From Dastarcus helophoroides (lineage: Eukaryota > Arthropoda > Insecta > Coleoptera > Bothrideridae): 64,000 nt of DNA. The position numbers and the translations under genes are program-made. Each line of letters starts with the position of its first letter. Within the stretch, counting starts at the first letter, position 1. This document shows, in pieces, positions 2,076 to 56,800 of this stretch. Location of the stretch: positions 29,252,626 to 29,316,625 of the forward strand of contig CM053327.1 of the NCBI GenBank assembly GCA_028583605.1. The letters are read 5' to 3'. Under the pieces are notes generated by a model. It made no database searches, had not been told where the DNA came from, and saw nothing but the letters and a program-made list of their open reading frames with translations.

Positions 2076-3363
2076 TTGGGTTGGCAACTAAGTAATTGCG
2101 GATTTTTTTTTAGAAAATCAAAGACAATTTTTTCATGGAACTAAATAATTTTATTGTGTAATGTATTATTTATTTTGGTCAATGACCTTTTGCCATTTTT
2201 CAGGCAGCATCATAATCCCCTGTTCATAAAACTTCTGGTTTTTATTAGCAAAAAACTAAATCAGGTACGATTTGACATCATCATCATTATTGAAATTTTT
2301 ATCATTCAACGAGTTTTGTAAAGATCGAAACAAAAAGTAATCAGATGGTGCAAGGTCAGGACTATATGGTGGATGTGGCAAAACATCCCAACCAAGCTCT
2401 AATATTTTTTGCCGAGTGACCAAAGATGTGTGTGGCCTTGCATTGTGATGATGAAATACAACATTTTTTCGATTTGTCAATTCGGGCCGCTTTTCTTCAA
2501 GTGCATTATTTAATTTCGTTAGTTGTTCAATGTAGACATCAGAATTGATTGTTCGGTTGGGTGGTAAGAGTTCAAAGTAGACAATTCCTTGGTAATCCCA
2601 CCAAACTGATAACAAAACCTTCTTTTGATGAATATCAGCTTTTGATGTTGTTTGAGTTGGTTCACCTGGCCTGCTCCACGATTTTTTTCGCTTGATATTG
2701 TTGTAAACAACCCATTTTTCATCGCCAGTTATCAGTCGTTTTAAAAATGGATCATTTTCATTACGTTTCTTTAGCAAATCGCAGCTGTTAATGCGTTGCG
2801 TTAAATGCATTTCTTTCAGTTCCTGAGGAACCCATGTATCGAGTTTTTGAACATAGCCAAGTTGTTTTAAGTGATTTTCAATGCATGTATGTGATACATG
2901 AAACTTCTCTGCAATCTCACGTGCTGTACTGTGACGATCCCAATCGATTATTGCTTTGATTAGGGCGTCATCAACTTCAACTGGACGACCAGACCGTTTT
3001 TCATCTCTGAGTGAAAAATCACCAGAACGAAATTCGGCAAACCAATTTTGACACTGCCGTTCTTTTAAGGCTTCGTCACCATAAACAGCACATAACTTTT
3101 TATGAACTTGCGATGCGTTTTTCCCTATGCGGAAATAAAAAAGCAAAATATGACGAAAATGTTCCTTTTGATTTTCCATTTTTCAACGAAGGCCAAGCGA
3201 AAACTACGCAACCGATCAAAAAACTTTTTTTACTAATTTACAGCTGAATTGCCAACTATCAAATAACAAAATGTGTTTTATATTTGTACTACGTCTGCAA
3301 ACCTAAAAATTCAACTGAAGCCATCTATGAATGAAATCCGCAATTACTTAGTTGCCAATCCAA
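2076..3363 (-). mobile_element. mariner transposon, complete (1288 bp)
   Basis: Both ends are present and flanked by TA (2074-2075 and 3364-3365), the Tc1/mariner target duplication. The 26-bp terminal inverted repeats start TTGGGTTGGCAACTAAGTAA and differ at one position (TTGGA at the right end). Length and single transposase gene are typical of mariner. Its ends differ from the mariner copies at 12568 and 47521, whose repeats read GGCAAGAAAGTAATTTCGG, so it is a separate family. Confidence 0.95.
2166..3179 (-). pseudogene. mariner transposase, DD34D, one nonsense codon and catalytic D-to-H
   Basis: Cut-and-paste transposase of the mariner family. From Met at 3179 the frame gives MENQKEHFRHILLFYFRIGK with the N-terminal paired helix-turn-helix region (residues about 1-110), then WVPQEL at 117-122. 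The catalytic triad starts at D153 (TGDEKW) and ends at D280 (APSDY). The middle Asp of the usual HHDNARPHT motif is His at residue 245 (FHHHNARPH). The 245-280 spacing is the expected DD34D. The frame meets TAG at 2256-2258 after residue 307. Read through, the same frame continues with KNQKFYEQGIMMLPEKWQKV to a TAA at 2166-2168, a normal mariner C-terminus. So one nonsense mutation and one active-site change make an almost complete gene inactive. Confidence 0.93.
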
Positions 3364-12565: not shown

Positions 12566-12962
12566 TATTTAGTTGGCAAAAAAATAATTCGTTTTTTTCA
12601 TACAGACAGCGTTATTTAAATTTTTTTGAATGAATTATTTGGGTGATGTTCTTTACGTTTTGACATTTGATATCAGACAGATCGAGACTCATTTTGAATC
12701 ATGTGGTGAGGGATTTTATTTGTAGCTGATAGTTGAGGGTCAATTTTAACATGGAGTGCAAAAACGAACATTTTCGGCATATTTTAATTTTTTATTTACG
12801 TTAAGCACCGAAAGCTGCAGAAGCTCATAAAGAAATATGTGAAGTTTATGGTGGCGATTGCATAACAAAACCCACTTGTCAGAATTTGTGTAAGAAATTC
12901 CATTCTGGAGATTTTTCACTCAAAGATGACCAATGTTCTGGTCGACCTGCTAAAGTTGATAA

Positions 12963-15566
12963 CACAGGCCCACAAAAAAAAAGTGGTGTGTGCTGGGTGT
13001 CGGACCCACATAGTCCGGCGTATTTTTTCCCGCTGAACACGAATCTGTAGTCTAAATTGGGGGTCAAACTGCTAAAAGTAGAGAAAAACCAAAAAAACCG
13101 ATAAAAATCACGATCTCGTATTTTTTTCTGTTTGATATTATCATTCTTATAATTTTCGTCTTTTCCTGACCCTTTTTTCTTCAAATGACCTGTGAAGTGG
13201 ATTTCTGCTACGTTTTGTTCCTTTTTCTTGAGTTTCTCTGTGTAGCATCCAACAGAAATCTGCAAACATATTTATTCCCCACTGTCCCTGAAACCGCCGT
13301 TCAAACTCTTTGAGATCTTGGTGAAATCTTTCTCCTTGCTCTTCACTGAAGTCTCCGTTATTCTCCGGGAATTGGTCAAGATGCGAATCAAGGAAGTGCA
13401 TTTTCAAATTCATTAGGCAACCTGAATGCTGAAAATTTCTTATCATATTTGCCACAATGCTTTTGTAATCAGCATCCTTGGTATTGCCTAAAAATTTGGT
13501 ACACACTTCCTTGAAACTTAACCACGATGCCTTTTCTTGGTCATCCATGACTGCAACAAACCCTTCATCTTTGAATAACTTTCGGATTTCCGGTCCATCG
13601 AAGATGCCTTCCCTTAGTTTAGCATCAGATTTTTTTTTAAACACAGTACGCAGGTACGTAAAACATTCACCATCTTTATCAAGAGCTTTGACATACTGTT
13701 TAATTAAGCCAAGTTTTATATGAAGAGGAGGAATGAGAATTTTGGCTGGATCAACAAGCGGTTTCTTTATTATATTATGTGATCCAACCTTAAATGAAGA
13801 TCGTAAAGGCCATTCTTTTTTTACGTAGTGATTTTTTCGATCCCTACTGTCAAACATACACAAATAGCATGGATATTTTGTGAATCCAGATTGCTGTCCA
13901 AGGATCATGGACAAAATTTTTAAATCACCACATACTTGCCACTTATGTTCTTCGTACTTTATTTTCTTTAGGACAACTTCGAGGTTTGAATACTCTTCTT
14001 TAAGTACAGTGGAGTGGGCTAAAGGTAGAGGAGCAAATTTGTTGGTGTTGTGGAGAAGGACTGCCTTAAGACTCTGTTGAGACGAATCAATGAATAACCG
14101 CCAATTTTCTGGCTCATATAAATTTGGCTTAAATTCATCGATAAGTCCTTTTACATCAGTGCAATAGAGTAAATCTTCATTTTTTTCAAAATATTTACGG
14201 AAGGCTTCTTCTCGATTCCGATAAAACGAAACTTTAGTACCTTTTGTCAATAGATTTCTCTTTTTCATATTCGAAGCCAATATTTCAGCCGCTTCTTTTG
14301 AGAGTTTAGCCTCTCTGAATAAATCATTCAGATGTTTTTGATCGTATTTTTCCGGCTTCCGATCTTCACCAATAGGTCTGTATTCTTCATTGCTCGAAAA
14401 CTCTTCTTCCTCAGATTCGCTAGAAATGTTTTCACTACTAGTATCAAACTCTTTATCAATAAAAGCTGAATTTTCAGGATCGACGTCGACTTCCATTGTG
14501 TCTAATCCACTAGTCAGACTGTCTTGTGACGTGTCATCTTCTAAACCTTCTATGAAGTTTGCAACTGGTTGTTGAACACTTGACACAGAAGGATAAGAAA
14601 TTTTATCCTTATGCATTCGGCCCACAGTGTTGACATTTGTTGTGCAAAAGTAACAATTACTTGCATCAAGTGGCTTTTTCCATATCGCTGGAGTTTTAAA
14701 TTTAAGATTCGCCTTGACCTGGTGCTTTTCAAATCTATTGATCATATTATAACATGAGCCACAAACAAAATTGGGTATCCAATTTTTGAGATCGAGGGAA
14801 ACTTTCATATTGAAGCACTTTTCATACAAAGTCACGAAACGATCTGTTAGTTTCTTTGTATTTTTTATCCCTATGTACTTTGCACAAACGTAGCAAAAAG
14901 CATTGGGATTTCCAGTACATTTGTGATTGCCACGAGTACTAGAAGTTCCAGCAAAATTTTCAGTAGAAGAATCCATGAAAATAAATAAACCCCGCACGCT
15001 AGAATACCTAGGCCTAAGTATGAGGGCTTTCCGACTTTGACAAGGACAATGTCAACTCGTCGTCGGACACACTACGGCATCATTCTCATATTCTAGCGCT
15101 TCCCTGCAAAACAGCGCGCCTTCGCTGGCTTCGATACGCCGAAATGTTGACTAGCGAATCATTCTACACATCCCGATAAAGGGCAGTTGTCATCGTAGTC
15201 CAATCATTCCGGAGTAGCAGGTTTCTGCCGGTAAATGTACCGATTTAGTTAACCATTTCCTTATTTTTTGTCAAAAACAAAATATCATCTATGTGACACT
15301 TAAATAAGACACAATAAGTAGTGAATTAACGTATTTGCACATTACGGTTGGATATTACAGAGAGAAACAAGTAGAAACTGCAAGATGATAATATCATACA
15401 GAAAAAAATACGAGATCGTGATTTTTATCGGTTTTTTTGGTTTTTCTCCACTTTTAGCAGTTTGACCCCCAATTTAAACTACAGATTCGTGTTCAGCGGA
15501 AAAAAATACGCCGGACTATGTTGGTCCGACACCCAGCACACACCACTTTTTTTTTGTGGGCCTGTG
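12963..15566 (-). mobile_element. Unassigned DNA transposon with 182-bp inverted repeats and TAA duplication (2604 bp)
   Basis: Terminal inverted repeats are 12963-13144 and 15385-15566, 182 bp each, with about five differences (near 97% identity). Ends begin CACAGGCCCAC, then a poly-A run and GTGGTGTGTGCTGGGTGTCG. TAA flanks both sides (12960-12962 and 15567-15569); only this 3-bp duplication restores the host mariner codon order exactly. One gene fills the interior on the minus strand, its stop codon two bases inside the left repeat. The region 14998-15384 is a GC-richer leader. A 3-bp duplication and a CAC terminus recall CACTA/CMC elements, but the TIR is not a standard CACTA sequence; TAA would also fit the TWA site of PIF/Harbinger. 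Confidence 0.93.
13147..14997 (-). CDS. Putative DDE-type transposase of an unnamed family (616 aa)
   Basis: Intact 616-codon frame, the only long open gene here. Met8 (MDSSTEN) is an alternative start. Residues about 35-82 hold a CYVC...CGSC pair arrangement 40 residues apart, with WIPNFVCGSCYNMI, resembling the ZAD zinc-binding fold. A second pair is C115-C118. Residues 150-215 are acidic and Ser-rich. The core resembles an RNase H-like nuclease: D304 in RLFIDSSQQSLKAVLLHN, D358 in CGDLKIL, a CYLC pair at 377-380, then E553/E556 in SEEQGERFHQDLKEFERRFQ. FADFCWMLHRE and a basic, NLS-like tail follow. The conserved blocks (FIDSS, GERFHQD, CWML) are those I remember from many unnamed arthropod proteins. 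The D-D-CxxC-E order resembles CMC-type transposases. Catalytic assignment is inference; membership of a transposon is seen directly. Confidence 0.85.
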   Translation of the reverse strand: MRGLFIFMDSSTENFAGTSSTRGNHKCTGNPNAFCYVCAKYIGIKNTKKLTDRFVTLYEKCFNMKVSLDLKNWIPNFVCGSCYNMINRFEKHQVKANLKFKTPAIWKKPLDASNCYFCTTNVNTVGRMHKDKISYPSVSSVQQPVANFIEGLEDDTSQDSLTSGLDTMEVDVDPENSAFIDKEFDTSSENISSESEEEEFSSNEEYRPIGEDRKPEKYDQKHLNDLFREAKLSKEAAEILASNMKKRNLLTKGTKVSFYRNREEAFRKYFEKNEDLLYCTDVKGLIDEFKPNLYEPENWRLFIDSSQQSLKAVLLHNTNKFAPLPLAHSTVLKEEYSNLEVVLKKIKYEEHKWQVCGDLKILSMILGQQSGFTKYPCYLCMFDSRDRKNHYVKKEWPLRSSFKVGSHNIIKKPLVDPAKILIPPLHIKLGLIKQYVKALDKDGECFTYLRTVFKKKSDAKLREGIFDGPEIRKLFKDEGFVAVMDDQEKASWLSFKEVCTKFLGNTKDADYKSIVANMIRNFQHSGCLMNLKMHFLDSHLDQFPENNGDFSEEQGERFHQDLKEFERRFQGQWGINMFADFCWMLHRETQEKGTKRSRNPLHRSFEEKRVRKRRKL

Positions 15567-16456
15567 TAATAATCAAATTAATGCCATTATTAAACAGGAT
15601 CGTCATATAACTGTTCGAGAGATTTCAGTGAGGGTAAATGTATCACTCACAAGCATTAAGAATCACTTAAAATGTCTTGGACTTGTTAAAAAGCTCGATA
15701 TTTGGGTTCCGCATATATTAAAGGATATTTATTTGACACAACGAATTAATATTTGCGATATTTGCATCTTAGGCGCAATGAAAATGATCCCTTTTTATGA
15801 AGAATCATTATTGGTGATGAAAAATGGGTCACCTGCAATAACATCATTCGAAAACGATCATGGTCCAAGCACGATGAACCAGCACAAACCACATCAAAAG
15901 CTGAATTGCATAAAAAAAATATGCTGTCGATTTGGTGGGATTATAAAGGTGTTGGGTATTTTGAGCTGCTTCCAAGGAACCAAATAATCAATTCAGATAT
16001 GTACAGCCAACAGCTAATGAAACTAGATGAAGCAATTAAAGAAAAAAGTCCAGAATTGGCAAATCGAAAAAGAATTGTGTTCCACCATGATAATGCTAGG
16101 CCTCACACATCTTTGGTAACTCGCAGGAAATTATTGGAGCTTGGTTGGGAAGTGGTGTCGCATCCCCCATACAGCCCTGACATAGCACCATCTGATTACC
16201 ATTTATCTCGCAGTTTGCAGAACTTTATGAATGGTAAACATTTCCCAAATGATGATGACCTTGGTTCACTTGGTTCAGTTTTTTTCTGAGAAGGATCAAA
16301 AATTTTATGAATGCGAAAACATGAAGCTGCAAGAAAGATGACAAAAGGTCGTTAAACAAAATGAAAAATATATAATTGACTAGAGTTTATTCTTTGTATT
16401 AAAAAAATGTGTTTTTTTCATACCACAAAACCGAAATTACTTTCTTGCCAACCCAA

Positions 16457-19377: not shown

Positions 19378-21864
19378 CTGTACACCAATACCTCACTTTG
19401 CGTCGGGGCTACGTTCTAAAAAAACACGACGCAAATTGAAACGACGCAAAGTAAATTAAGATTTTCTATAGCAAACCATGTAAAGATCGAAGATAGGTTC
19501 CAGGGTTACGAAAATACTACTTTTTAAAAAGAAAATTGAACAAAGTAAACATTTAAAAAACAAAAATAATATAAAATGTTATTACATACATACAAAAAAC
19601 AAAAAAAAAACGTATTCAATTAAAACAAAATAAACTATTCAATTAATTTATGAAAAACAACATTAAAATTAATTACTGTCTGATGAGTCCCTAGTGGCTG
19701 TTGTCGCAAGTCGGCTCTTTTTCACAATAAATTGGTACAATTTTTACTGAACAGCTTTTTTTTCAACGTAAAATAAATTTCCTTGTAGCAATTGATATTC
19801 GTAGCTACCGCCTGGGACACTTTAAAACTCCTTCCGCTGTCAGGATCGTTTTTTAAAAAAAATCTCCATAGCTTCGTCAATCAAACACATCGCTTTGGAA
19901 ATTTGTTTGGAGGTTAAATTTTGTTCTTCGGAGATTTTTATTGAGCAATTCCAGTTGCAATAGTTCTTCATTAGAGAATTCTTGGTTGTGCGAGGTTAGC
20001 AATTCATTTATGTCAGTCTCCTCCATACCTTCAAAATTAGACTCTCTAGCTCAATTAGAAATTTCATGACGAATAGCTGGTGTACCATATTCTGCAGCGC
20101 ATATTCGGTGAACACATTCAGGCCATATTTTGCGCCAAACACCATTCATGCAAGATTGTTTAATCTCCTTCCACGAATTGGAAATAATTTCTATGGCTTT
20201 CATATTGTTGAACTTTTTCCAAAACTCTAGCATAGTAGGCTTATCTTGTCCATCAGTCTCACTTAAAACAAGTTTAAATATTTGTCGAGGTTAATAACTT
20301 TTAAAAGTCGATATTACTCCCTGATCCATCGGCTGAATAACTGGTGTCGAATACGAGCCAGCCGCCTAATAAGGCGGCAAAAATACAAATTTCACGTTTT
20401 CTGACAACTCATTAACATAAACTGGGTGGCCAGGAGTATTGTCTACTAGGACCAAAGCCTTAAAATTTAAGTTTTCCTGGTTGCAATAAGCTCAAATTTT
20501 TGGAATAGCACAAATTGAAACCCAGTTTTGAAATTATTATGTTGTCATCCATGCTTTTTTGTTTGCTCGCCAGTGAACAGGAAGCAGATTCTTTGAACAA
20601 CCTTTCATAGCACTTGGATTTTCTGATTGCTAAATGAGAAATGGTTCAAATTTAGAATCACCATTTGCATTACCACCAAGAAGAAGAGTCAGTCTATCCT
20701 TACTAGCTTTAAATCCTGGCGTAGATTTTTCTGTTTTAGATATGAAAGTTCTGTTAGGTAGAAGTTTCCAAAATAACCCAGTCTCGTCAACATTAAAGAC
20801 TTGTTTCGGATCATGAATTAATGCATTTAACTCTGTCAGGTAGCGTTCTGCAGCAGTTAAATCAGCGCTAACTGCTTCGCCTTTAAGAGCAATGCTGTGC
20901 AAATTTGCTCGAACTTTGAATCTCTCAAACCAGCCCTGACTAGCATCAAATGTTTCATTCTTGTCTGTATTACTACCACTAGCATTATCGCTGGATACTG
21001 TTTTACTTTTTATGTCATCAAATAAGCTTTTTACCTTCGTCTGAACTACCATTTTACTTAATGGTATTCTCAACTTGATTTTCAATCCAAATAGAAAGCA
21101 AGGACTCCATTTCGATCATCAAAGCACTCCTTGTGCGGGTCATCGTTTTAGCATCTAATGATGTTGCAGATTTTGCAGCCTCTCTTATTTTATCCCCATC
21201 TCGATTTCTAATAGTTCTGACAGTTGTTGCAGCCAGACCAACAGTCTTTGCTATCTCCCCAGCCTTCTCTCCCTTATCAAATCGTCGCAGAATATCTAAT
21301 TTTGTCTCCAAGCTGATAGTTTTTTTTTATTTTTGGTAATTCTACCAGCAGCGCCCTTTCCACTCATTTGGCTAAAAAAATTACAAGTGTATGTAAAAAA
21401 ATATAACACTACCAATAAATAAATTGGAAAAATATTTACTTTTTTTGTAACCAGAAACAACCCTTAAAAATTTATAAAAATTTATTATTCTCTTTTAAAA
21501 AAAGCACAACACACTAATTGAAACGTTACAAAAAAGCACAACACACTACATAATTAAAACTGAACTCTAAAATTAGTCAAACAAAGTGAAAATAAAACTG
21601 TATTAAAATTGCGTTGATTTTCGGTTAGAAAGGGAATCCCCGAGTTTTGATGTCATGGCCCAATTAGAAACAAAAGTTGTGCCATCCTTTAGAAAAAAAA
21701 GAAAATTTCACAAAATTTCAAAAGAAAAATTAAAGACTCGAACCCAAAATAACGCAACCTCGAAAATCTAACGATGCACAGTGAAAATTAGTAGTAATTA
21801 AACAGCGACACAACTTCGAAAAAATGCAAAACGAAACGACGCAAAGCGAGGTATTGGTGTACTA
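19378..21864 (-). mobile_element. pogo/Tigger-type transposon (2487 bp)
   Basis: Inverted ends share GTACACCAATACCTC-N-CTTTGCGTCG, and TA flanks both sides (19376-19377 and 21865-21866). Removing the element joins AGGATT-TA-CTATTG, matching the unbroken site near 6880-6900 of the other host copy. Length and a single broken gene fit Tigger elements of the pogo branch. Confidence 0.9.
19680..21367 (-). pseudogene. Tigger/pogo transposase with CENP-B-like DNA-binding region
   Basis: Probable start is ATG at 21367 (MSGKGAAGRITK), followed by a shift into LETKLDILRRFDKGEKAGEI (psq-type helix-turn-helix). A second frame (21085-20630) holds the CENP-B-type block FDASQGWFERFKVRANLHSI, then the first catalytic Asp in VFNVDETGLFWKLLPNRTFI and LLLGGNANGDSKFEPFLI. 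Past a stop, the minus strand still shows LVLVDNTPGHPVYVNEL (second Asp) and IQPMDQGVISTF (third). Later pieces include WPECVHRICAAEYG. All three catalytic Asp are recognisable, but stops and frameshifts make it non-functional. Confidence 0.92.
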
Positions 21865-28351: not shown

Positions 28352-28715
28352 TTGATTCTCAAATGTCTGAAGGAGAATAGAATCATCTCGGACAGGCAAT
28401 ACGATTTTAGACAACAACGTTCCACTGGAGATCTACTGGCCTATGTTACTCATATCTGTAACTCAGCTAGGGAAAACATGGCAAGGCTAGGATTGTGGCA
28501 TTGGATATCTCAAAGGCCTTCGACAGAGCCTGGCACCGATCTCTTCTCGCCAAATTAACATCTTATGGTCTTCCTCCTGGATTCTGTCATTTAATATCCA
28601 ATTTTCTCGCTGACAGATCTCAGGCCGTCGTCGATGGCATCTCATCCGAGACCCTGGGGTGCCTCAGGGGTCTGTCCTGTCTCCTACTCTGTTTCTCTTA
28701 CACATAAATAATCCC
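28352..28715 (+). pseudogene. LINE reverse-transcriptase module, copy 1 of 3
   Basis: Jockey/I/CR1-group reverse transcriptase. Reads ILKCLKENRIISDRQYDFRQ, then QRSTGDLLAYVTHICNSA, and after a shift VALDISKAFDRAWHRSLLAK, GLPPGFCHLISNFLADRS and PQGSVLSPTLFLLHIN. It stops just before the YADD motif, where copy 2 starts in frame. Confidence 0.88.
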
Positions 28716-29945
28716 TCAGTCAAGACTCGGACTATATTTGTAGATGCACGAAATTCTTGTAAACAGGTTATTGACGAGGCAAAAGGTGATTTCGATCGTA
28801 AAATGCACCAGAGGCTTATTAACTGTCCGAACAGTTCCAGGTCCTTTTGGGGATTTGCAAAGTCGATTAGAAAGAATTTTACACCTTCAAATTTTCCACC
28901 TTTACTCGATGAAAATAGCAATATTGCTACTACCTCCAAGGAAAAGGCTGACATGTTAGCCTTAATGTTTGCTGAAAATTCCAATCTTGATTCTCGAAAC
29001 GCAGAACCTCCTATTCCCCGTAAGGTTGGCATGTCGATACCTGAAGTTATTTTCAGTCAATGCTCAATCAGGAAAATTCTCCTTGAGCTCGACACCTCGA
29101 AAACTTCTGGCCTTGATGGTATTCCCGCTATTGTTCTTAAAAAGTGCGCCCCAGAGTTGGCTCCTGTCCTAAGCAAATTGTCCACACTCTCTTACAACAA
29201 AGGTGTATTCCCTAACATCTGGAAATCTGCTAGAGTGCAGCCTGTCCCTAAAAAGGGAAAAAGGAATCTGGCTAACAACTATTGTCCTATATCTTTGTTA
29301 CCCGTTATATCTAAAGTGATGGAAAAGGTTATCAACATCGCGATTCTCAAATATCTGAAGGAAAATAGAATCATCTCCGACAGGTAATACGGTTTTAGAC
29401 AACAACGTTCCACTGGCGATCTACTGGCATATATTACTCATATCTGTAACTCAGCTATGGCAAAACATGGTGAGGCTAGGATTGTGGCATTGGACATCTC
29501 AAAGGCCTTCAACAGAGTCTGGCACCGATCTCTTCTCGCCAAATTAACATCTTATGGTCTTCCCCCTGGACTCTGTCATTTAATATCCAATTGTCTCGCT
29601 GACAGGTCTCTTCAGGTCATCGTCGATGGCACCTCATCCGAGACGCGGGGGTGCCTCAGGGGTTTGTCCTGTCTCCTACTCTGTTTCTGTTACACATAAA
29701 CGATCTCTTAGCTTCAACTTCCAATCCTATATACAGCTACGCAGATGATAGTAGCCTTGTGTCATCTTTTTTCTCCGACAAACCTTTATCCGTCGCTGCT
29801 TCAGATCGACTAAGGAAACAGCAGATACAGATGATTAATCGGGATCTCAAAATCATTCTGGAATGGGGTAAAAAAATCTGGTCGACTTCATGCTTCAAAA
29901 ACTCGGATCGTGGTTGTCTCTTAGAAAACATCAACGGATAATGCA
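28716..29945 (+). pseudogene. LINE reverse-transcriptase module, copy 2 of 3 (pre-RT to YADD)
   Basis: Starts upstream of the RT core: CPNSSRSFWGFAKSIRKNFT, SKTSGLDGIPAIVLKKCAPE, ARVQPVPKKGKRNLANNYCP, ISLLPVISKVMEKVI. A TAA at 29385 replaces Gln before YGFRQQRSTGDLLAYIT. Motif A follows as VALDISKAFNRVWH: the first (catalytic) Asp is kept and the second is Asn. After a shift comes PQGFVLSPTLFLLHINDLL and the catalytic SYADDSSLVSSFFSDKPLS. The last part, LKIILEWGKKI, shifts frame and ends in a stop. Copy 1 is joined in frame to the start of this copy, giving a 242-codon frame (28659-29387) that is a chance fusion. Confidence 0.88.
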
Positions 29946-36421: not shown

Positions 36422-37373
36422 TGTAACGCCATGTAAGTATATGGAATAGAATTTAGAATACAATTGTAGAATTTAGTACATAAGAAAAGTTTCTAGAATG
36501 ATCTGATAAGGGGAAAGCGACCGCGATAACGAAGCAAACGGCAGATAAGCGTTCGCGAAATTTCGGCAAACGTTAAGCCTTATCTGCCGGATTGTTCTGG
36601 AACCTGGATGCCAAAACTATTTAAGGCGGTCAGCTTTCTCTCAAGTAAGTCAGTTAGAGTCAGTGTAATTAGTAAGTTAGTAGAAGTCAATAATAAGTGA
36701 GTTAATTGTTCAATTGTGGTGATCCAAGTTTAGTTTAGTAATAAAGTGGGTATTATTTTCAATTCTTTTGTGAATCAATTCGAACCGATAAAGCCCGTAA
36801 CCGCGACCGCGATAACGAAGCAAACGGCAGATAAGCGTTCCCGAAATTTCGGCAAACGTTAAGCCTTATCTGCCGGATTGTTCTAGAACCTGGATGCCAA
36901 AACTATATAAGGCGGTCAGCTTTCTCTCGAGTAAGTCAGTTAGAGTCAGTGTAATTAGTGAGTTAGTAGAAGTCAATAATAAGTGAGTTAATGGTTCAAT
37001 TGTAGTGATCCAAGTTTAGTTTAGTAATAAAGTGGATATTATTTTCAATTCATTTGTGAATCAATTCGAACCTATAAAGCCCGTAACCGCGACCGCGATA
37101 ACGAAGCAAACGGCAGATAAGCGTTCCCGAAATTTCGGCAAACGTTAAGCCTTATCTGCCGGATTGTTCTAGAATCTGGATGCCAAAACTATATAAGGCG
37201 GTCAGCTTTCTCTCGAGTAAGTCAGTTAGAGTCAGTGTAATTAGTGAGTTAGTAGAAGTCAATAATACGTGAGTTAATTGTTCAATTGTAGTGATCCAAG
37301 TTTAGTTTAGTAATAAAGTGGGTATTATTTTCAATTCATTTGTGGATCAATTCGAACCGATACAGCCCGTAAC
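36422..37373 (+). mobile_element. LTR-like sequence with a triplicated core module
   Basis: Starts TGTAACGCC and ends GCCCGTAAC, flanked by AATAT on both sides (36417-36421 and 37374-37378). After about 97 bp of unique 5' sequence, a module of about 286 bp repeats three times (starts 36519, 36804, 37091). Each module contains GCAAACGGCAGATAAGCGTT, a TATA-type box (ACTATATAAGGCGGTC; ACTATTTAAGG in the first), a Ser-like run of GTCAGTTAGAGTCAGTG and AATAAAGTGG, a polyadenylation-type signal. This layout fits an LTR promoter with R region. No internal retrotransposon genes are visible. Confidence 0.8.
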
Positions 37374-43778: not shown

Positions 43779-44757
43779 GTGTCAAATGCAATAATTGGTA
43801 CCAAGGCTACAGAAGCTTGTTGTAAGATATGCGCTGCTTTTGGGGAAGGTACTGTAGCTGAACGGATGGGTCAGAAATGGTTTAAGAAATTTGCCTCTGG
43901 AGATGAAAATCTGGAAGATGAAGCTCGCTTCGGAAGACCATCAACGATCAACAACGACGATATCAAACTGGCGATCGAGCAGAATTCAAGTCAGACATGT
44001 CAAGCTCTTGCCTTAAGATTTAATGTGAGTGATGACACTATTCACATATATTTGCACTAGCTTGGGAAACGATGGAAATTAAGTAAATGGGTTCCACATG
44101 AATTGAGTGAAACGAACAAGTTAAAGTGCTCAACAATCTGTTCATCGTTGCTTTCCTTTCCACAACATAATGTCGTTTTTTGACCAAATGTTGACGTGGA
44201 ATGAAAAATGGATTATGTACTGCAACATTAAGTCATATCATTGGCTATCCAGTAAAGATCCTTTGACCGCTAAACCAAACATTCACCAACAAAAGCTTCT
44301 GTTATGTGTATGGCGGACTACAGCAGGTATAGTTCACTATGAGCTTCTGCCAAGTGGACAAACCATTACTGCCGAAATCTACTTAGCACAGCTTAACAGA
44401 GTTGCGGTCGCTCTAAGTCAAAAACAGCCTGCTTTGGCGAACAGAAAAAGTGTTGTCTTCCATCAAGTCAACGCAAGGCCACACACAGCAAGAATCACGC
44501 AGGAAACTATAGCGCGACTACAATGGGAAGATCTACTTCACCCTTCGTACTCACCAGACCTTGCCCCAAGTGACGACCACCTGGCCTTGGACAACCAAAT
44601 GCGGAATCGGCGATTTGAAAATAGAGAGGTTTTGGAAAATGAGATGATACATTTCTTCAATTCCCAAAAGCAAGATTTTTACAAAAATGGGATATATGAT
44701 CTTGTGTCTAGATGGGAAAGGGTAATACTTGCAGAGGGTGGTTATTTTTTAAAATAA
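43779..44757 (+). pseudogene. mariner transposase, two frames, catalytic D-to-V
   Basis: First frame (43779-44060) carries the DNA-binding part: KICAAFGEGTVAERMGQKWF, FASGDENLEDEARFGRPSTI and an HTH ending IHIYLH with a stop. Then WVPHELSETNK, and the second frame (44170-44757) begins with a degraded first-Asp block, NEKWIMY where (G)DEKW is expected. It continues NIHQQKLLLCVWRTTAGIVH, FHQVNARPHTARI (second catalytic Asp replaced by Val) and HPSYSPDLAPSDDH. The C-terminus reads NGIYDLVSRWERVILAEGGY. Two of the three catalytic positions are damaged. Confidence 0.88.
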
Positions 44758-46837: not shown

Positions 46838-47520
46838 ATTTGATTCGAGTTTTCTTAGCCGGTTACTTCCTTCACGAATTCAAATCCTCAGTTATATTTT
46901 TATTAAAGATTAGCTGATACCCGTCCCTTCGCCTGCGTGAAAGAAGAGAAAGGATTCTTTGGTCACTTTTTGGAAATTCTCACTCTTTTGAAGAATTAGA
47001 TTTTTATTGTTCGACTTTATTTTGAAAATTTAGACCATTTTGATTGGCTTTTTCTTAGCCGGTTGCTTCCCTCACAAATCCAAATCATTAGTTATATTTT
47101 TATTAAGGGCTAAGCTGATACCCGAACCTTCGCCTGCATGGAAGAAGAAAAAGGATTCTCTGGTCACCTTTTTGGAAATTCTCACTTTTTTAAAGAATTT
47201 GATTTTTATTATTCGACTTTATTTTGAAAATTTAGACCACTTTTATCCACTTTTTTTTCAATTTCAAGCTTTTCTCGTTCCGACTTCCAAAATTTCAATT
47301 TTTCTTCCAAAATTTCACCTAATTTTGAAATTTTCACTTATTTAGGGGTTTTGACTGTTTAAACATTCCTTAAAACTTTTCTCTTTTGTATAGATTTTGA
47401 TTTTTTTAGAAACTCTTTGATTTTTTTGATGATTTTGGTGTTTATTAAAACTTTTTCAAACATATAATTTTTTTTGAAAATTTCACATTTTTGAAAATTT
47501 TCTTTTTAAAGTTGTAAATA
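46838..47520 (-). repeat. Dispersed repeat with about 202-bp units, copy 2
   Basis: Inverse counterpart of 16457-17295, with two unit copies (CTTAGCCGGTTGCTTCCCTC and CTTAGCCGGTTACTTCC) followed by the same low-complexity run up to the mariner end at 47521. Confidence 0.85.
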
Positions 47521-48283
47521 TTGGATTAACAAGAAAGTAATTTCGGTTTTGTGGTATGAAAAAAACACATTTTTTTAATACAAAAAATAGACTGTACTCA
47601 ATTATATAATTTTCATTTTGTGCAACGACCTTTTGCCATCTTTCTTGCACCTTCATGTTTTTGCGCTCATAGAATTTCTGATCTTTCCCAGAAAAAAAGT
47701 GAACCGAGTGCGATTTAAGGTCATCATCATTTGGGAAATTTTTACCATTTATAGAGCTCTGCAAACTACGAAATAAATGGTAATCAAATGATGCTAGATC
47801 AGGGATGTATGGGGGATGCGACATCACTTCCCAACCAAGCTCCAATAATTTCCCACGAGTTACCAAAAATATGTGAGGCCTAGCATTGTCATGGTGGAAC
47901 ACAATTCCTTTTCGATTTGCCAATTCTGGCCTTTTTTCTTTGATTGTTTCATCCAGTTTCATTAGCTGTTGGCAGTACACATCTGAATTGATTGTCTTCT
48001 TCCTTGGAAGCAGCTCAAAATACAAAACACCTTTATAATCCCGCCAAATCGACAGCATAATCTTTTTTTAATGCCATTCAGCTGTTGATGTTGTTTGTGC
48101 TGGTTCATAGTGCTTCGACCATCGTTTTCGAATGATGTTACTGCATGTGAGGCATTTTTCGTCACCAATTATGATTCTTTTCAAGAAGGGATCATTTTCA
48201 TTGCGCCTAAGATGCATTGTTGTGTCAAAAGAATATCTTTCAATTTACGCGGAACCCAAATATCGAGCTTTTTAGTAAGTCCA
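47521..48283 (-). pseudogene. mariner transposase, C-terminal two thirds
   Basis: The TIR TTGGATTAACAAGAAAGTAA follows TA at 47519-47520. The minus strand reads AMLSIWRDYKGVLYFELLPR, DETIKEKRPELANRKGIVFH, FHHDNARPHIFLVTRGKLLE, HPPYIPDLASFDYHLFRSLQ and FYERKNMKVQERWQKVV. The third-Asp block reads SFD, still with Asp. A frameshift lies near 48060. The element is cut at 48283 inside the KLDIWVPRKLK region, so the N-terminal third and left end are missing. It sits at the same site in the flanking repeat as the mariner ending at 16456. Confidence 0.88.
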
Positions 48284-49195
48284 AGGTACAGGTTTTATAT
48301 TGTAAGAGGCAGGGTAATAAATTAACGCGTATAGGCAACTTTAAATACCGGCATGTGTATTATTTGTTGTGTACCTTGTCTGAGTTTTCAATGCCCATTT
48401 TTAGGCCCTTAGAAGTTGAATTTTGAAAAATATTCTCTTAGTGCTCACCTATTTTACATGTAGTCTCCTTGTGCAAAATTTCATTCTTCTAGAAGCACCT
48501 GTGTAGACTGTGCGTTGTCTGTCAGTCAATATTAGAGATTTATTAAATAGATTACAAATCTTTTCAGATTGTCATAAACAGCGATTGCGTTAGAGTTTAA
48601 TTATTAACACAACTTCGCAAAGAAGTTACAGAGAATATTTAAAACGCTGACATCCGACCTAAGTTTGAAACAAACGTGGTTATATTGAGGACATCTATCC
48701 ACACTTGCAAGCACATACATATAAGTGGATTCTTTATAAGGTTAGCGAGTATGAAAGTAATTGTTTATTAGCAATATTGGAACAATATAAAGGCCATCAT
48801 TGTTCTTTTTGTGTGCACCTTTTACTTTAGATCTATAGTCACATATAGAAACAGATATTTGATTCCATTAGATACTGATTCGCATTATTTTCCATCTTGC
48901 TTATTTAAAATATTCATTGTTACTGTTTTATAAAAATTTGAAACCTTCAAAGAAGCATTGTGAATTCTTCTTTTTAGTCTCTTGTTGATAGAAAACATAG
49001 AAATAGGTTAATTTAACATTGTGAGGATACAGTTTGAAAAATATTTAAATTGTTTTCGTAATGAAAATTGTTGGCACTTTTCGAAACATTTTTTGAGGAA
49101 AAACTTTCTGGAAGTAAGACGTTCAGTTTACAATTAAAATGTTGAAAAAAGTAGCAAATTCAAAAGTGTTACAAATCGTGGAGTGTGTGTGCGGG
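48284..49195. other. No recognised gene
   Basis: Contains CACAACTTCGCAAAGAAGTT near 48606, the dispersed motif also at 22270 and 59790. Otherwise nothing identified. Confidence 0.35.
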
Positions 49196-53884: not shown

Positions 53885-56800
53885 TCTATAGATAAGTTGG
53901 TTAATTAAACAGTGTTAGTGAATTATGGTAAAATTTTAGTGTTCAGACCAGTGGCGGCTGGCGTATAGACACTGTGGAACTGCAGCACCCCCAATTTCGC
54001 TTAAGAGTTTTTTTCTCAAAATTTTCAAAAAACTTTTTATTTCACAATTTTTCGACTTTTTTCTTAAAATTTTGACTTTTTTCTCGAAATTTTTGAGCTT
54101 CTTCTCAAATTTCGATTTTTTCCTCGAAATTTCGACCTTTTTCTCGAAATTTTGACCTTTTTCTCGAAATTTTGATCTTAATATCAAAATTTCGACATTT
54201 TTCTAGAAATTTCGACTTTAAACTCAAAATTTCGAATTTTTTTTCTCAAATTTCGATTTTTTTCTTTGTTGGGAAAAAGGAGTGGTGGGACGCAACTGTC
54301 ATCTGCCTAAAAATGAATAAATTATTTAGTAGAAAACGATCAGTGAGTTAAATGAAATTGTCTGGATAGTAAACATTTTCGAAACTTAAAGAGGATTACA
54401 GTGGCGGCTGGCGTATAGGCACTGTAGAACTGCAGCACCCCCAATTTTGCTTAAGAGTTTTTTTTTCAAAATTTTCTGAACACTTTTCATTTCACAATTT
54501 TTTGTAGAAATTTTAAATATTGATTTCTTTTTATAGAAATTTTAGGCTTCTTCTACGAAGTTACGACATTTAAAAACCTAATTTATTTTTAATTTTGATC
54601 AAAATCATATTTTTAAAAACTAATTTTTGTAAAAGTATTGAGGAAGAAAAAAAATCGAATTTTGAGAAAAAAGTCGAAATTTAAGAAAATATCGAAATTT
54701 TGAGAAAAAAAAGTCGAAATTTTGAATTTAAAGTCGACATTTCGAGAAAAATGCCGATATTTTGAGAAAAATGTCGAAATTTCGATATTAAAGTTAACAT
54801 TTCGAGAAAAAAGTCGAAATTTGAGAAAAATGTCGAAATTTCAAGAAAGAAGTCGAAATTTCCAAATATTTCGAGAAAAAAGTCGAAATTTAAGAAAAAA
54901 GTCGATAATTTGAGAGAAAAAATCGAAATTTGCGAGAAAAGTCGAAATTTCGAGAAAAAAAATCGAAATTTTGAGTTTAAAATCGAAATATTGGAAAAAA
55001 TATTGAAATGTCGATATTAAGGTCAAAATTTCGACAATAAAGTTGAAATTTGAAAAAAAAAACGAAATTTCGGAAAAAAGAGTCGAAATTTTGAGAAAAA
55101 ATTGAAATTGAGAAAAAAGTCAAAATTTCAAGAAAAAAGGCGAAATTTCGAAATATTTCGAGAAAAAAATCTAAATTTGAGAAAAAAGTTGAAATTTCGA
55201 AAAAAAAGTCAACATTTCGCGAAAAAAAAGTCGAAATTTTCAGAAAAAAGTCGAAATTTTCAGAAGAGTTGAAATTTAAGAAAAAAGTCGAAATTTTGAG
55301 AAAAAAAAGTCGAAATTTCGAAATATTTCGAGGAAAAAATTGAAATTTGGGAAAATAGTCGAGATTTCGAGAAAAAAGTCGAAATTTCGCCAAAAAAAAG
55401 TCGAAATTTCAAGAAAAAAGTCAAAATTTCGAGACAAAAATCGAAGTTTGCGAGAGAAAGTCGAAATTTCGAAAAAAAAGTTAAAATTTTGAATTTAAAG
55501 TCGAAATCTTGAGAAAAATATCGAAATGTCGATATCAAGGTCAAAATTTCGAGAAACAATCGAAATTTGAGAAAAAAGTCAAAATTTTGAGACAAAAGTC
55601 GAAATTTTGAGAAAAAAAGTCGAACCTTCGAGAAAAAAGTCAAAATTCCGAGCTTAAAATTAAAATTTGAGAAAAAAAGTCGAAATTTCTAAAGATAACA
55701 TTTTTTTAAATCGATTTCCTTTCTACGGCTTTGTAACATTTCGAAAAAGTTTAAATTTTCAGAAAAAATCGAAATTTCCAGAAAAAAGTCGAAATTTTGA
55801 GAAAAAAGTCGAAATTTGAGAAAAAAGTCAAAACTTGAAATAAAGGCGGAAATTTGAGAAAAAAGTCGAAAATTCTAAAAATAACATTTTTTTTAATCGA
55901 TGTTCTTTCTACGCCTTTGTAACATTATTAATTATTTCAAATTTTTTTCAAATTTCGATTTTTTCTCTAAAAAATGTTGCTTTTTTTTCCTATGAAATTT
56001 GTGTTTTTCTCTAAACATTTTATACAAAGATTTTTTTTTGAAATTTGGATTTATCCTGGAGATTTTGTCTTTAAAATATTTTTTCCTCTAGAAATTTTGC
56101 AATTTGCATTCAACTTTTCGAAACCGGACAATTGAAAACAAGTGAAAATTATCAGGAGAGGTTTTCAAAAGTCGAAATATTGAAAGGTTAAAATTTTGGA
56201 AAAAGTTTAAACTTTTGGTAGCTAAGATTTTGAATCAAAGTGGAACATTTTTTTAAGAAGTTGAAATTTTAGGTCAAAAAAATTTAAAAAAAATGTCAAA
56301 TATTTCATAAAATTTCAAAATTTTCAAAAAAGTCGAAATTTTGAAAGAATTTCCAAAATTAAGAAGCAGCGAAATCTTCAACAAAAAAACTTAAAAAATA
56401 ATCGAAACTTTCCAAAAAAAAAAGTCGAAATTTTGAAAAAGAGATGGCATTTAAATAAAAACAAATCGAAGTTATTAAGAATCGAAATTTTCAATAAAAA
56501 ATTATAATGTTCAAAAATTATTATAAACAAAGATGAAATTTAGAAAAAAGTCGAAAATTCAGAAAGTCAAAAGTCCAGTTTTGAAAAAAATTAAATTTTC
56601 AGAAAAAGTAAGAATTTTCAAATGGTAAAAATTAAAAAAATGTAATAATTAATTTTCAAAAAAAAATTACCAAAAAAAGACAGAACACCGAAAAGTCTAA
56701 ATATTTACGAAAATACGGAAATTTTTAAAAGAGTATTCGCGGTTTTTCAAAACAGTCAATACTTAAAATTAAAATAAGGTCGAGATTACAAGAAAAAAAT

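Follow-up and report, generated by a model that had tools for sequence, protein, structure and literature searches.

A 64,000-nucleotide stretch of the genome of the beetle Dastarcus helophoroides (GenBank assembly GCA_028583605.1, contig CM053327.1, positions 29,252,626 to 29,316,625 of the forward strand; hereafter the window) contains a DNA transposon at 12963-15566 that is very probably an autonomous, recently active Chapaev3 element of the Chapaev subgroup of CMC/CMCT, as judged by published traits rather than by a tree or an alignment with Repbase entries. In PMC4079192 (Zhang et al. 2014), Chapaev elements are marked by CAC/GTG termini and by C(2)C, LH, and H(4)H motifs, and Chapaev3 by a TWA duplication lying between A and T in all elements examined, mostly one exon, and star-like copy trees. 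Three full-length Chapaev3 families described there measure 2,289, 2,451, and 2,455 bp, and Chapaev biology is termed largely uncharacterized. CAC...GTG termini, TWA between A and T, and the C(2)C, LH, and H(4)H motifs together with a putative Asp-Asp-Glu (DDE) triad were all found in the present element, which is therefore filed as a new family of Chapaev3. According to PMC12730594, the wider CMCT clade has C(2)C plus H(3-4)H, mostly CA..TG ends, and duplications of 2-5 bp, and PMC3630058 reports Chapaev3 from another insect, Calliphora vicina.

An initial annotation of the locus had recognized a DNA transposon with an intact gene, and the element proved to be autonomous and complete, encoding an RNase H-like DDE transposase. 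The distant CMC/CACTA link suggested there agrees with the position of Chapaev within CMC/CMCT. The view that the element has no place in a named superfamily is not supported, as the traits, including LH, H(4)H, and A-TWA-T, are those of Chapaev3 in PMC4079192 and PMC4411706. The match of protein and termini to this described group is by traits and not by direct alignment with Repbase entries.

The termini are of the CACAGG type already reported for the element, and its terminal inverted repeats (TIRs), given earlier as 182 bp at about 97% identity, differ by 5 mismatches over 182 bp (97.3% identity). The element interrupts a mariner relic and is flanked on both sides by TAA, the target-site duplication (TSD) proposed earlier. 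When the element and one TAA are removed, the mariner frame continues across the joint. A second mariner copy at 3169-2161 lines up with the two flanks once they are joined, with no gap where they meet and with 728 of 1,011 columns identical. Frame continuity and the gap-free joint show the TAA to be a real duplication.

Copies were collected from the 539-Mb host assembly (50 contigs). The 72 loci scored were the top scorers in a protein search with 1,921 first-look candidates, so that their divergence is biased low, and all of them match the whole query at 99-100% identity. Besides the window copy, 71 further copies were fetched, with both ends located in 70. With up to 2 mismatches allowed, CACAGGCCCAC and GTGGGCCTGTG located the ends of 71 of the 72 copies; the miss, L018, was excluded wherever ends were required, leaving 71 copies for analysis. 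Matching 3-bp flanks occurred in 69 of these, with TAA, TTA, TAT, AAA, and CTA in 32, 31, 4, 1, and 1 copies, respectively, against about 30 matches expected from random pairing of left and right flanks; the flanks of L023 and L050 are unequal. TAA or TTA (TWA) was present in 63 of the 71 copies; whatever the triplet, the base before it is A in 69 and the base after it T in 70 of the 71. Across the whole genome, at up to 3 mismatches, a 33-base TIR pattern matched at 357 places and a 43-base gene pattern at 179 (reversed controls, 0), in keeping with about 180 copies that each have two ends. The copy search and duplication table proposed in the initial annotation yielded both a copy number by pattern and a 3-bp TWA preference. 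By counts only, these patterns gave no surplus of ends, and no large family of miniature inverted-repeat transposable elements (TIR-only derivatives) is evident with them.

Mean divergence from the majority state was 0.29% (range 0.04-0.69%) in the 71 best-scoring copies, and 421 of 467 minor states were confined to one copy, a star-like spread. Frames were intact in 54 of the 71 copies, while 17 failed, 16 by a premature stop and L069 by loss of the usual stop. Of the changes in the gene, 87 are synonymous, 217 are non-synonymous, and 16 create stops, where their own spectrum predicts 77.9, 225.2, and 16.8 (ratio 0.86), which suggests near-neutral decay after a recent burst. The low divergence and the 54 open frames point to recent activity. 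Insect mutation rates are near 3e-9 per site per generation, at which 0.29% corresponds to the order of a million generations. Recent activity had been proposed before from the high TIR identity; the conclusion stands on copy-to-copy identity and intact frames, but the argument does not, because four of the five TIR mismatches of the window copy are family-wide (positions 67, 90, 118, and 170) and position 45 alone is private. TIR identity was accordingly rejected as an age clock.

Some copies depart from the usual pattern of bases at positions 67, 90, and 118 of the TIR arms. In L043, L051, L057, L058, L073, and L074 the right TIR has the left-type base at each of the three positions; in L042 it is the left TIR that has right-type bases, and L028 shows both swaps. 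No other variant with at least three carriers tracks these copies, which would be explained by exchange or conversion between the two arms or as a small subfamily.

The transposase gene had been described as 616 codons long. Its open frame at 13147-14997 is real, but 616 counts from a GTG start, and the first ATG gives 609 aa, so that the earlier residue numbers D304, D358, E553, and E556 drop by seven to D297, D351, E546, and E549. The stop sits two bases off the left TIR, as reported. Homologues align over most of the protein length and form a very large family, with 990 proteins at E <= 0.001 among 7,993 candidates scored; none of the 120 homologues listed bears a transposon name. Conservation was read from an alignment of 82 sequences (A1) chosen from the window protein and these 120, mostly the longer ones, and a second alignment of 66 rows (A2) was likewise hand-picked from the same source, again mostly longer ones. 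D297, D351, C370, C373, H419, H527, and H532 are invariant in 82 of 82 sequences, and E546 and E549 are identical in 81, the remaining row being gapped. The order of D, D, Cys pair, and E that was first taken as RNase H-like is borne out by this conservation and is not due to chance. D297, D351, and E546 would form the catalytic triad, E546 being tentatively preferred to E549 on a RAG1 alignment. The predicted structure has a mean predicted local distance difference test (pLDDT) score of 86.3, and the predicted fold of the core is nearest to RAG1 and Transib, with best structural alignments at 11-14% identity. The fold prediction called for in the initial annotation indicates an RNase H-like DDE core that is probably RAG1/Transib-like. 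The assignment also suggests that the large family of unnamed proteins mentioned in the initial annotation belongs with Chapaev3.

A PDB search with the single transposase sequence gave no match at E <= 10. In viral_contigs, 50 stretches were matched by pattern and none by tblastn. A 373-aa protein of another public assembly (P0001) covers 61% of the transposase at 91% identity and may be a lead to horizontal transfer.

The N-terminal Cys-pair domain matched two Pfam models with scores under gathering, zf-AD at E 3.7e-5 and RAG1_imp_bd at E 0.0074. In a Foldseek search with its structure model (pLDDT 87.7), the seven best rows were ZAD chains (best E 0.027); no RAG1 chain stood in that list, which does not exclude a RAG1 likeness. 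Profile searches gave weak matches to the M1BP ZAD (E 0.029 and 0.031) and to the RAG1 N-terminal chain 21wb_A (E 0.56 and 0.89). The ZAD-like character ascribed to the N-terminus at the outset agrees with the zf-AD match and the ZAD-first fold ranking. As a tentative idea, less likely than its opposite, this domain, ZAD, and the RAG1 N-terminus may be one homologous domain, with ZAD genes having received theirs from a Chapaev-type transposase or the reverse. The THAP domain, shared with the P element, offers a parallel (PMC9810180), and a transposon with a RAG1-like N-terminus, N-RAG-TP, is described from Aplysia in PMC8355894. No published link between ZAD and Chapaev, or transposase origin of ZAD, was found among the titles and abstract openings listed by the literature search or in excerpts of two of the papers; one further listed paper names ZAD and Chapaev once each. 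The wider interest of the element lies in this ZAD/RAG1-like N-terminus.

Several findings weigh against the assignment to Chapaev3. Membership was judged by traits rather than by sequence comparison with named Chapaev3 transposases. Chapaev3 is reported to carry a zinc domain called Chapa at its N-terminus, a relative of the RAG1 N-terminus (PMC4411706), and this expected domain was not firmly found: the RAG1_imp_bd match is under gathering, and the model matched 3 of 82 family members at E <= 0.1. A Pfam search of the protein returned no transposase model even at E 10, Foldseek TM-scores to RAG1 were 0.38-0.46, and three other HzTransib entries scored just 11.5-11.8. Eight of the 71 copies are off TWA (TAT 4, AAA 1, CTA 1, and two unequal pairs), and activity is deduced from copies rather than seen directly. 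The trait-based membership, the size of a family whose 120 listed homologues bear no transposon name, and the weak Chapa evidence would also suit a CMCT lineage that is sister to Chapaev3, has its ends and target in common, and has no name of its own. Such a lineage is nonetheless improbable, as the element matches published Chapaev3 in its ends, its A-TWA-T target, its motifs, and its single open frame.

Two further explanations are far less probable still. PIF/Harbinger elements make TWA duplications, the kind found here, and the fold list, although nearest to RAG1 and Transib, does not by itself exclude a family absent from it. A PIF/Harbinger-type element is very hard to reconcile, however, with C(2)C and H(4)H motifs that follow the second Asp and precede the Glu, the CMCT pattern in PMC12730594, with the RAG1- and Transib-like fold, and with CAC/GTG ends. 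The 17 failed frames would fit a dead relic that owes its copies to segmental duplication and not to transposition, but no two of the 71 copies have the same 60-bp flank on the left or on the right, their 3-bp flanks match in 69, their changes are star-like, and an empty site was recovered, which leaves hardly any room for this explanation.

Features of the probable Chapaev3 element and of the interrupted mariner relic (window positions)
Feature	Position	Strand	Remarks
Whole transposon	12963..15566	-	2,604 bp; gene on minus strand; basis TIRs and TSD
Left TIR	12963..13144	.	182 bp; starts CACAGGCCCAC; 3' of gene
Right TIR	15385..15566	.	182 bp; ends GTGGGCCTGTG; 5' of gene
TSD TAA, left copy	12960..12962	.	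A precedes; empty site from mariner alignment
TSD TAA, right copy	15567..15569	.	T follows; empty site from mariner alignment
Transposase gene	13147..14976	-	609 aa from ATG; single intact open frame
N-terminal Cys-pair domain	14572..14919	-	About residues 20-135; ZAD-like, weakly RAG1 N-terminus-like; putatively zinc-binding
RAG1/Transib-like RNase H catalytic core	13216..14355	-	Residues 208-587; predicted fold match and conservation
Core motifs			D297, D351, C370-x2-C373, L418-H419, H527-x4-H532, E546
Mariner relic, left part	12761..12962	+	Interrupted by transposon insertion
Mariner relic, right part	15570..16373	+	Pfam Transposase_1 in 15906-16286

Elsewhere in the window, other repeats were observed. 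There are at least four mariner relics or fragments, at 12761-16373 (the interrupted one), 2161-3179, 44170-44757, and 47483-48285, all with Pfam Transposase_1. A fragment at 20630-21085 gave a weak Tc5-type transposase DNA-binding match (E 1.8e-4, just under gathering), and an open frame at 28659-29387 a weak reverse-transcriptase match (E 7.6e-4, under gathering), perhaps part of a long interspersed nuclear element. One analysis reported a pair of tandem arrays: a 286-bp unit in three copies with 97% matches at 36517-37373, and a long AT-rich array of units of about 20 bp at 54645-55874, which contains GTCGAAATTT. Neither a tRNA nor an Rfam match that reached the gathering score was found in the window.

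With the element read as Chapaev3, a mechanism can be proposed. The transposase would bind both TIRs, likely as a dimer, given its RAG/Transib fold, and the N-terminal Cys-pair domain probably contributes to this binding. The RAG1/Transib-like DDE core would be braced by a zinc site of C(2)C and H(4)H, and a cut at the CAC/GTG ends would excise the element. Insertion into A-TWA-T would follow by 3-bp staggered joining, of which the duplications and the target preference are the observed part. The order of strands and cuts, and a hairpin on the flanking DNA, may be as in RAG/Transib, to judge from the fold. The family is clean and recently amplified, with about 180 copies, 54 of 71 frames intact, and mapped ends and target, and a single intact protein combines a RAG1-like core with a ZAD/RAG1-like N-terminus. 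Biochemical tests of a Transib/RAG1 cousin are thereby made feasible.

Among known systems, Transib makes 5-bp duplications. With Transib, RAG1, and ProtoRAG (BbRAGL), the element would have a RAG1-like catalytic core fold in common, as predicted from the structure model, but it makes a 3-bp duplication (69 of 71 copies) and carries no RAG2-type second gene. PIF/Harbinger has the TWA duplication in common, while motifs, predicted fold, and terminal bases differ. The ZAD of insect zinc-finger transcription factors resembles the N-terminal domain in Cys-pair pattern and in the fold predicted for it, whereas here a transposase core follows, the score lies under the Pfam cut-off, and the structural Z is middling (6.1). 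CACTA/EnSpm has the hallmark termini CACTA/CACTG, in contrast to CACAG here. Both have CAC ends and a duplication of 3 bp, and they share the C(2)C and H(3-4)H motifs (PMC12730594). With Chapaev3 itself (Merrow, Garfield, and Conan; Repbase Chapaev3-1_PM and others), compared by description only, the element agrees in ends, A-TWA-T target, motifs, similar length, and star-like copies. Merrow and Garfield have two exons, whereas the present element has one open frame, and most other Chapaev3 have one exon according to PMC4079192.
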